From Lacticaseibacillus camelliae DSM 22697 = JCM 13995 (GTDB taxonomy: Bacteria > Bacillota > Bacilli > Lactobacillales > Lactobacillaceae), in assembly GCF_001311195.1 (NCBI RefSeq), contig NZ_BBAJ01000005.1, forward strand, positions 1 through 61,410: 61,410 bases of DNA, written 5' to 3'. Position numbers and translations under genes: made by a program. The notes under the pieces were generated by a model that saw only the letters and a program-made list of their open reading frames with translations, searched no databases and was not told where the DNA came from. This document shows positions 20,332 through 58,984 of this stretch, piece by piece (the first letter of the stretch is position 1; each line of letters opens with the position of its first letter).

Positions 20332-20452
20332 GTTCGTCTTCAGGGGCAGGGTGAAATTCCCGACCGGCGGTGATAGTCCGTGAACCGTGCATGTGCACGG
20401 CCGACTTGGTGGAAATCCGAGACCGATAGTATAGTCTAGATAAACGAAGATG
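20332..20452 (+). ncRNA. FMN riboswitch (RFN element)
   Basis: Contains the conserved RFN blocks in order: TCTTCAGGGGCAGGGTGAAA, TTCCCGACCGGCGGT, GTCCGTGAACC, the GTGCATGTGCAC variable stem, CTTGGTGGAAATCCGAGACC, GATAGTATAGTCTAGAT and the closing AACGAAGA. Located between a sigma-A promoter and a terminator ahead of ribU; FMN binding is expected to favour termination and shut off riboflavin uptake. Confidence 0.96.
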
Positions 20453-20482
20453 GGGCTTATTTTGAATCGACATTCAAGCTAA

Positions 20483-57529: not shown

Positions 57530-57914
57530 AAAAACGCCCGACCGCTTTTCTTGAAATTACCAAGAAAAGGGGCCGGGCGCTTCGTCTGCATCCGAAACCA
57601 CGCAAAGGGCACCATCTCTTGCGAAATGGTGTCCCGCGCCACCGGATTTGACCCCGGTGGCTTTTTATTGCAGGGTTGCCCCTGCCTGCTATCCCAACCG
57701 CTGTCACCAGGGCCGGTCGCTTTATTAAGTTAGGAAAGTGATAGCAGCATCCTGCCATGCGTCCTGAAAGGACCCCATACGTTGAGGTATGGTCTTCGTA
57801 GCCAACCAGCTGGCGGCTCAGCATGCCGGGTCAACCCATGGCTTGGGTCGGATTGCCCGGTAGTTGGCGAGTAGTGCTGATGAGGTTGTTCCTTCCTCAC
57901 CCACTCGTCATCCA
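57530..57914 (-). ncRNA. Candidate structured non-coding RNA, about 385 nt
   Basis: No plausible protein in any frame, but dense pairing on the minus strand. Minus-strand helices: CGAGTGGGTGAGG with CCTCATCAGCACTACTCG at the 5' end; CCGGG...ACCCA / TGGGT...CCCGG; AGCC-CCAGCTGG-GGCT; CATAC / GTATG; GTCCT-TTC-AGGAC; a long-range CTGCTATC / GATAGCAG (57740-57747 with 57686-57693); GCAGGG-GCAA-CCCTGC (57670-57685); a second GCAA-capped hairpin at 57607-57635; and a final 57535-57579 stem followed by five T as terminator. It starts just downstream of TTGACA-N17-TATTCT. It lacks the signatures I know for RNase P, tmRNA, SRP or 6S RNA. Not assigned to a family. Confidence 0.7.
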
Positions 57915-57919
57915 AGGGC

Positions 57920-57948
57920 AGAATAGCACGGCATGAAATCGTTGTCAA
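57920..57948 (-). promoter_or_regulatory. Promoter of the structured RNA
   Basis: Minus strand TTGACA (57943-57948), 17-nt spacer, TATTCT (57920-57925): full consensus -35 and 5/6 -10. Transcription should start near 57912-57914, at the first helix of the RNA. Confidence 0.8.
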
Positions 57949-58085
57949 TTTAATTGAGATGAACCTTTTTAACCATGTCATGACATATAGTATTCTATTT
58001 ATATTCTGGGTTGGTTTGCCTGACGAAACGAGTCGCCACACATCAAAAGACGCCCCAATCAACTCGATGATCAGGACGCCATTAA

Positions 58086-58965
58086 CTATTTGGTGAGGGG
58101 CTTGAACCGGTCGATGAACGCTGTAGTGATCGGCGTCTGGAGCCGGTGCTTACGCCAGGCCAGGACCGTGTGGGTCTGCACGCGCGGCTAGAACGGGATG
58201 AACCGCACCCCGGCGTGATTTTGCGGGTCGATGACGCCTTCGATCGTCAGGGCGGCACCAACTTGTGCTTGCACCAACGGCATGACGTTAAAGATCAGAT
58301 TGAAGTGGCCGACAATTTTCAGATCGGTCAGTTTAATCTCCGACCACGAAGCCAAGAGTTGCTGCACGGCGCCGCGGCTGGAAATAATGAGCGGCACCTC
58401 TGGCAAATCGGCAGGCTCGATCACCGGTTTCGTGGCGATGGGGGCGTCGACACTGACGACCAGGCCCCAGCGCTCTGTATGCGCCAGTGTGAGGTGGTCG
58501 TACTTGTCCGCATTCACCGGCTCGAGCAGCAAGGCCAGGTCGATCAGGCCCTTGTCGAGCCGGTCAAACAGGTCGTCGGAGGTCCCGGTGAACAGGTCGA
58601 AGGTGACCGCCGGGTATTCGGCCGTGAACCCGGCAAGTTCGTTGGCCAGGGTGTGGCTGCTGTCAGCCTCGACTGCACCGATGTTGAGGTTCCCGCTGAA
58701 TAACTGACGCCGCTGGTCGATAAAAGTCTGCTCGGTTTGCTGCGTCAACGTCAGGATTTCCTGCGCACGCGTTTTGAGGTAAAGTCCGGCCTGCGTCAGC
58801 GTGAGGCCGTGATTGGTCCGCGTGAACAGTGGCGCGCCTAACTCGTTTTCCAGCTGCTTGAGTTGGCGGGAGAGTGTAGCTGCGTGATGTGCAGACGCTC
58901 TGCCGCCCGCGAGATCGAGCCCGCGCGTCAATCGCCAAAAAGTATTCCAGCAGTCTTAATTCCAT
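58086..58965 (-). CDS. LysR family regulator (two frameshifts and an in-frame stop)
   Basis: About 293 aa if restored. N-terminal HTH: MELRLLEYFLAID, then RGSISRAAERLHITQ (a G missing near 58921) and PTLSRQLKQLENELGAPLFTR (a C missing near 58879). The effector domain begins GNLNIGAVEADSSHTLANEL. The frame then meets TAG at 58188-58190, yet continues in the same frame with PRVQTHTVLAWRKHRLQTPI and TTAFIDRFKPLTK to the next stop, so the stop looks like a GAG-to-TAG change or paired indels. ATG 58965 after GGAGG. Last gene of the cupin-CMD-SDR-LysR unit (19-nt gap). Could be a true pseudogene. Confidence 0.75.
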
Positions 58966-58984
58966 CACGCACGCCTCCAGTCAG

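Follow-up and report, generated by a model that had tools for sequence, protein, structure and literature searches.

A multicopy family of structured RNA genes in Lacticaseibacillus camelliae and its relatives, with a subset of copies head to head with a basic, predicted OB-fold-like protein gene

To our knowledge, few dedicated pairs of a large structured RNA and a protein exist apart from the core machinery of the cell. In a 2025 cryo-EM paper on ornate RNAs (PMC12286853), the large structured bacterial RNA OLE is described as forming a ribonucleoprotein with dedicated Oap proteins, and the large ornate RNAs ROOL and GOLLD as forming homo-oligomers; the genes of the latter two occur in phages and prophages, often close to tRNA islands, and Rfam contains profiles of all three. 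Structured motifs with several copies per genome have been described, in PMC11109978, as candidates for mobile or repeat elements. A small-RNA survey of L. casei BL23 also exists (PMC8220740). Within the open-access papers searched, subscription papers and preprints being outside that scope, no description was found of the system reported here, in which an RNA gene is associated with a protein gene that we call c0.

The window, i.e., the whole 61,410-nt stretch of Lacticaseibacillus camelliae DSM 22697 = JCM 13995 that was analysed, carries a promoter, a 317-nt RNA core and a terminator on the minus strand from 57948 to 57530 (Table 1). An earlier note on this DNA had proposed a discrete structured RNA gene with its own promoter and terminator, and both elements were found: the TTGACA-N17-TATTCT block, which is common to several copies of the RNA, and a 3' stem followed by TTTTT in the computed fold. 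A simple terminator scan of the window did not list this stem, although it is present in the fold. The minus strand from 57530 to 57915 folds with -181.7 kcal/mol (z -8.0 against 100 shuffles), and the plus strand of the same region folds less well (z -5.5). Where the note had counted at least eight helices, the consensus structure has 17; its two GCAA loops are both visible in the sequence, and its 8-bp long-range helix, CTGCTATC/GATAGCAG, is paired in each of the 17 copies aligned; at 2/8 pairs both sides have changed. The sequence 3' of the core varies among copies. Judging from the sequence, the RNA is probably transcribed.

Table 1. Positions of the RNA gene, its parts and other features in the window.
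Feature	Position	Strand	Basis or remark
Sigma-70-type promoter TTGACA-N17-TATTCT	57920..57948	(-)	10/12 matches; TG precedes the -10 box
Conserved RNA core, 317 nt, UUGGAUG to 3' end CUUUGCGUG	57599..57915	(-)	Homologue alignment
5' hairpin, core positions 9-48 (GAGUGG-GUGAGG...CCUCAU...CUACUC)	57868..57907	(-)	Helices 2 and 3
Palindromic hairpin loop CCAGCUGG, proposed homodimer kissing loop	57806..57813	(-)	Perfect palindrome in 24/24 complete copies
8-bp long-range helix, 5' arm CUGCUAUC	57740..57747	(-)	Consensus structure
8-bp long-range helix, 3' arm GAUAGCAG	57686..57693	(-)	Consensus structure
Terminal hairpin GGGACACCAU...AUGGUGCCC, GCAA loop	57607..57635	(-)	Helix 17
3' end motif CCUUUGCGUG	57599..57608	(-)	Form ~YUUUGNYGYG; resembles ends of diverged RNA families
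Intrinsic terminator, long stem then TTTTT	57530..57579	(-)	Present in computed fold
TGTCATGACA-like palindrome upstream of promoter	~57975-57990		Also at loci L002, L005 and L006
LysR-type gene	58188-58968	(-)	Split over two frames, 58188-58931 and 58663-58968
FMN riboswitch	20332-20455	(+)	Above Rfam cut-off

The neighbouring LysR-type gene is frameshifted, as had been noted from the sequence; an open relative of it, of 294 aa, adjoins an RNA copy in L. hegangensis. The palindrome upstream of the promoter is perhaps a regulator site. The FMN riboswitch is the only Rfam hit of the window at the cut-off.

At the RNA itself no Rfam family reached the cut-off, and the sole hit up to E 10 was a microRNA model with E 7; the RNA thus stays uncatalogued after the Rfam search that the earlier note had suggested. 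Neither tmRNA, RNase P, SRP nor 6S RNA was matched by Rfam at the locus, in agreement with the failure to find their conserved blocks by reading, and ARAGORN found no tRNA and no tmRNA in the window. The suggested kinship with ROOL or GOLLD was not borne out: besides the lack of an Rfam hit, blastn of the RNA against phage (INPHARED) and plasmid records and an exact-pattern search of IMG/VR gave no match. As for coding potential, no frame is open across all 24 complete copies, and two minus-strand frames are stop-free in just 1 and 4 of them.

The RNA gene is conserved, multicopy, structured and non-coding. Three of 100 related genomes were matched by a DNA search. A covariance model built from the middle 160 nt of the RNA and run on 30 genomes of the genus found 6 copies in the window's assembly (G000), 9 in L. 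hegangensis 73-4 (G018), 9 in L. jixianensis 159-4 (G014) and 0 in the other 27, and with stricter filters the same 3 genomes matched in a sample of 397 genomes of the family, leaving 394 without a match. We refer to these RNAs as family A. Besides its 6 complete copies, the window's assembly contains 4 fragments (3' parts on contigs C17 and C89, the latter a weak 60-nt match, and 5' parts on C62 and C10), all situated at the end of a contig or close to it, a placement to be expected where repeats interrupt an assembly. Counting the fragments as the halves of two copies would bring this assembly to about 8 loci and the total for the three species to about 26. The promoter is in the same place in most copies read; by eye, the -35 box is poor in L003, L012, L015 and L017, and no terminator is evident in L004 and L016.

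Homologue search and covariation analysis, proposed earlier as a check, found homologues whose pairing is kept by compensatory change. RNAalifold on 17 copies gave 82 pairs, 21 of them with compensatory change, and 98.3% of the cells of these pairs are paired. Keeping in mind that the structure was derived from the same sequences and that the copies are not independent, cells changed on both sides numbered 94 against a shuffled mean of 32.9 (0/500 shuffles as high). Sliding the partner by 1-3 columns reduced pairing to 37-45%. Further pair types showed no excess (47 vs 49.2 in shuffles, 460/500 as high). In the 5' hairpin three pairs have changes on both sides; in the terminal hairpin 99.5% of cells are paired and no pair has changed on both sides. 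With 23 complete copies of family A, drawn from the 25 oriented loci by leaving out L087, which is partial, and L086, which is very diverged, the alignment energy had a z of -11.3 against 30 column shuffles, and 24 compensatory pairs were counted against a shuffled mean of 3.2. A candidate loop pairing, AGGAA/UUCCU, was dropped since it is lost in two copies (L005 and L016).

In the family A alignment re-anchored at the loop, an 8-nt perfect palindrome stands between GAGCC and GGC in 24/24 complete copies. It occurs in four versions, CCGATCGG (14 copies), CCAGCTGG (5), CAGATCTG (3) and CTGATCAG (2), which amount to few independent events since the copies are related. Such windows arose in 500 column shuffles 0 times at 8 nt, once at 6 nt and 23 times at 4 nt. 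A tetranucleotide loop of this kind cannot pair within itself. PMC12286853 takes the switch of an OLE loop from GGCC to GAUC or AGCU as support for an intermolecular bridge, and since the switch seen here is of the same kind, two molecules of the family A RNA probably pair with each other via the palindromic loop. A hairpin loop of family C, one of the diverged families described below, contains GCGC or GGCC in 9/9 sequences (6/500 shuffles reach that).

Clustering of neighbouring genes revealed that c0, a gene for a protein of ~300 aa, is divergent from the RNA in 8/25 oriented family A loci, its open frame starting 85-301 bp from the RNA core; a ninth c0-linked locus lies at the end of contig C62 in the window's assembly. 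By profile search, each of the three genomes has 3 close c0 genes, and all 9 adjoin an RNA copy in divergent orientation. Two of the three in the window's assembly, on contigs C35 and C11, are either truncated or divided between two frames, through decay or draft error. A second gene, c1, follows 3' of c0 in some loci, and the two are distant homologues (hhalign probability 94.9, E 4.5e-8). A gene that is presumably DUF805-like adjoins the RNA or c0 at L080, L082, L115 and L116.

No convincing hit was obtained for c0 in Pfam, PHROGs, NCBIfam, PADLOC or PDB sequences. Its best library E values, each in one member, were 0.0012 in Pfam, 0.0015 in PADLOC and 0.012 in PHROGs; the Pfam match is to an unrelated domain, and no SSB match was seen in Pfam. 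For c1, no convincing match was found in Pfam. By tblastn, one c0 member against phages and two against plasmids gave no match, and of 70 pattern matches of the close c0 profile in IMG/VR none was confirmed. An AlphaFold model of c0 based on 33 relatives (pLDDT 89.5, pTM 0.83), which superseded an earlier model from 8 sequences (pLDDT 56.5), is confident and shows strands at the N terminus, a helical part and one strand late in the chain. The top Foldseek rows for this model in the PDB are mostly SSB and ribosomal uS12-type chains, the best with E 0.023 and none below E 0.001, and a viral structure library gave no match below E 0.001. SSB and uS12-type chains are OB folds, and c0 is predicted to be OB-fold-like. 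The c0 proteins are basic, with a median pI of 9.9 and 25/33 above 9.5, compared with 9/40 neighbouring families, whereas c1 is not (median pI 7.9, 5 rows). A natural reading is that c0 and c1 form an RNA-binding pair.

Genes of the c0/c1 type extend beyond the genomes with family A. With broader profiles they were found in 14/30 genomes of the genus, in G001 solely at E 9.5e-5; in 12/397 genomes of the family sample; and in 4 of a 395-genome sample of the order. All of these lie within the genus, and none was found outside it in the family and order samples. On the opposite strand upstream of many distant c0 genes we observed a promoter, a GC-rich stretch, a strong hairpin and a YTTTGNYGYG-like end, and the back-to-back layout with an AT-rich spacer recurs in many loci. 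At 30 loci, picked from 38 because the 3' motif had already been seen there, the RNA lengths are 294-412 nt, the best promoter has 6-11 of 12 matches, and the promoter spacer is 17 nt in 28/30. A mechanical test for a promoter, a terminal hairpin and the 3' motif 270-430 nt apart upstream of c0, devised after looking at the loci, was passed by 28/41 assessable distant c0 loci and failed by 13, compared with 1/192 control windows passing. The test started from 45 loci, without the fragment G021:C50, and 4 of them were discarded for having less than 600 nt of upstream sequence; at G021:C3 and G022:C10 the hairpin that passed is located past the motif recognised by eye. On inspection by eye, the arrangement is also present in several of the 13 failing loci, and a divergent RNA is absent, by eye and by the test, at G002:C1, G024:C72 and the weak G001:C1. 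All evidence together, RNAs stand at c0 loci in 13/30 genomes of the genus.

These diverged RNAs, which likewise end in a terminal hairpin, form groups without blastn similarity to the family of the window, and Rfam gave no hit at the RNA positions of 15 of their loci. Family C (9 sequences) has a z of -11.9 with 29 vs 7.8 compensatory pairs, and family E (5 sequences) a z of -14.2 with 39 vs 11.9, each with 40 shuffles; covariation is weaker in families H (z -4.9), B (-3.6), D (-2.9) and F (-2.9). Folding z-scores did not distinguish the region upstream of distant c0 genes, taken as a fixed window of 400 nt, from controls (9/36 vs 9/75 below -3); the argument for the distant RNAs therefore draws on covariation, synteny and the 3' end that they have in common. 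RNA families linked to c0 thus exist beyond the family of the window. A second c0/c1-type stretch follows c0 in 22/38 distant loci, in a separate frame in 16 and in the same frame in 6. The latter, all in G006 and G011, are single proteins of 514-600 aa, which would be c0-c1 fusions, the second stretch being recognised with the c0 profile. Families A and H, otherwise unlike, have a similar internal stretch, approximately TCYTAACTNAATANAG, and a second repeated GC-rich stretch (AAGCGCACTTAGGGGTGTGGGTAAGGCA and similar) was seen 3' of the RNA at L121 and L150 in one genome.

The RNA genes can be numerous. The number of matches to a family C model, which covers part of the RNA and comprises 8 sequences, was 37 in G013, 35 in G007 and 0 in the other 28 genomes of the genus; the final one or two matches in either of the two genomes are weak. 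In the 105 pairs formed by the 15 G013 copies that were read (of 37), the shared stretch starts at a median of -38 (middle half -46 to -16), approximately at the -35 box, and ends at a median of +2 relative to the RNA end (middle half +1 to +2), beyond which the copies differ. Boxes such as AACGTTTATAA and ATTTACAAAAAGT recur upstream of -35 at family C loci L214-L243, as if the copies fell into promoter classes.

In family A, several groups of similar copies consist of one c0-linked copy and one or two orphans. Core identities to the c0-linked copy are 0.98 (L066) and 0.94 (L068) for L065, 0.98 (L070) and 0.94 (L071) for L069, 0.997 (L073) for L072, 0.975 (L074) for L075, and 0.97 (L081) and 0.94 (L076b) for L080. 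As exceptions, L067 is alone in its species, L086 is alone on a long branch, and a group of 8 with lower identity mixes two species and two c0-linked copies. In a tree of 24 copies, all 9 L. jixianensis copies are on one side of a tentative branch with support 85/79, while neighbourhoods such as those of tsaB, glgB, c13 and c26 are common to three species. The copies look as if they evolve concertedly within species. Similarity between unlinked copies falls at or just past the 3' end of the core in most pairs compared. Retro-copying of the RNA, considered because similarity often ends there, is not preferred, since the shared unit includes the promoter in many pairs; gene conversion would stop where homology stops. 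One unlinked pair is 99.7% alike in the core and alike over a unit from -67 to +56, with no target duplication evident at its ends. In an empty-site comparison of one copy, its flanks were not found side by side in other genomes. By eye, TnpB-like genes lie within 3 kb of L072, L078 and L080, with a TnpA-like gene near two of them.

The window copy itself looks composite. Its upstream region and 5' half match one L. hegangensis copy, and its 3' half and downstream region match a second one, 7.9 kb away in the same orientation; the 7.1 kb between these two have one 68-nt weak match in the window's assembly, which is 84.5% complete. The window copy looks like a recombinant of two direct-repeat copies, which would be the simplest cause. 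A draft misassembly is possible, though the two L. hegangensis copies are nowhere identical over more than 33 nt at a stretch.

Taken together, we consider it fairly probable that the RNA belongs to a new, concertedly evolving RNA-gene family that forms a homodimeric ribonucleoprotein with c0/c1. Each gene would yield an RNA of 300-400 nt folding into many helices, which in family A would pair with a second copy of itself through the palindromic hairpin loop. A subset of copies would stand head to head with a gene for the basic, OB-fold-like c0, often followed by c1. The RNA, c0 and c1 most likely form one ribonucleoprotein, for which few loci would supply the protein and many the RNA. The likeness of copies inside a genome is a pattern seen in the tree, and recombination between copies would maintain it. 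Given the patchy presence and extreme divergence within one genus, the role might be accessory and fast-evolving, perhaps in genetic conflict rather than housekeeping. The 35 and 37 dispersed copies in two genomes, the pair nearly identical over its whole unit and the groups with one c0-linked member would also fit a unit of a mobile or repeat element, with c0-linked copies autonomous, RNA-only copies as satellites, and the fold acting at the level of DNA or mobilisation; multicopy structured motifs are a recognised candidate class of such elements (PMC11109978). We regard this reading as possible but unlikely, because no transposase, integrase or reverse transcriptase was seen to accompany the copies regularly (by eye, TnpB-like genes are within 3 kb of 3/25 loci), no target duplication was evident in the one pair compared, the promoter mostly keeps its place, and several positions are old, those at tsaB, glgB, c13 and c26 being common to two or three species. 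More speculatively, c0/c1 and the RNA may themselves keep or place RNA-gene copies at dozens of chromosomal sites, with c0-linked copies as masters and promoter-bearing RNA-only copies as satellites. This idea is doubtful; if true, a family of RNA-only genes with a tRNA-like copy number would owe its upkeep to its own ribonucleoprotein, and such an RNA-gene system would be categorically new.

A role of the RNA as a cis-acting element controlling the divergent c0 or a downstream gene is quite improbable. The back-to-back layout with an AT-rich spacer at many loci would suit such an element, but 17/25 oriented family A loci have no c0 neighbour and adjoin unrelated genes, and the two genomes with 35 and 37 RNA copies have 8 c0/c1-type matches each. 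Membership in a known class of large RNA such as ROOL, GOLLD or OLE, to which the ornate fold and probable homodimer loop are similar, is hardly to be expected when neither Rfam, at the window or at the diverged loci, nor phage and plasmid records gave a match. Equally implausible is an untranscribed GC-rich stretch or decayed coding region that merely looks structured: the plus strand folds well too, but covariation is present in three families without mutual blastn similarity, the 17-nt promoter spacing recurs in 28 of the 30 listed loci, and no frame is open in all copies.

With the ribonucleoprotein as our preferred reading, RNA genes that keep one layout despite great divergence in sequence stand back to back with c0-type genes in almost half of the genomes surveyed in the genus, which points to a new RNA-protein machine. 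One genus holds several RNA families without mutual sequence similarity, one protein superfamily and up to 37 RNA genes per genome, an unusually good natural series for RNA-protein co-evolution, for palindromic loops as marks of homodimers and for the upkeep of likeness among dispersed genes. The multicopy state, the tie of a subset of copies to c0 and the recombinant look of the window copy are beyond the reach of a single sequence and need other genomes. Since the hosts are lactic acid bacteria, tests should be practicable.

Compared with known systems, SSB proteins are the best match of the N-terminal barrel in the c0 model, but the match is not significant and c0 has a large helical part. 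Many dispersed structured copies per genome are a trait shared with the mobile or repeat candidates (PMC11109978) and with REP-type repeats; the copies read here differ in mostly having a promoter, in being alike up to the RNA 3' end and in showing, by eye, no regular transposase link. Whereas ROOL and GOLLD are phage- or prophage-encoded, often close to tRNA islands, the present window has no tRNA and the RNA no phage match. Many GOLLD members exceed 800 nt, compared with a core of 317 nt here, and ROOL has no identified protein partner according to PMC12286853, whereas the present RNA is protein-linked. OLE, at ~600 nt (PMC9723947), is longer than the ~300-400 nt of the present RNAs and has OapA and OapC as partners, while the neighbours found here are c0/c1, without a convincing Pfam match; the present RNAs also differ from OLE in lacking an Rfam hit, in being multicopy and in their high divergence within one genus. 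The OLE dimer is described, in PMC12286853, as having a self-complementary loop that switches between palindromes, and the present family shows an AGCU/GAUC-type switch.
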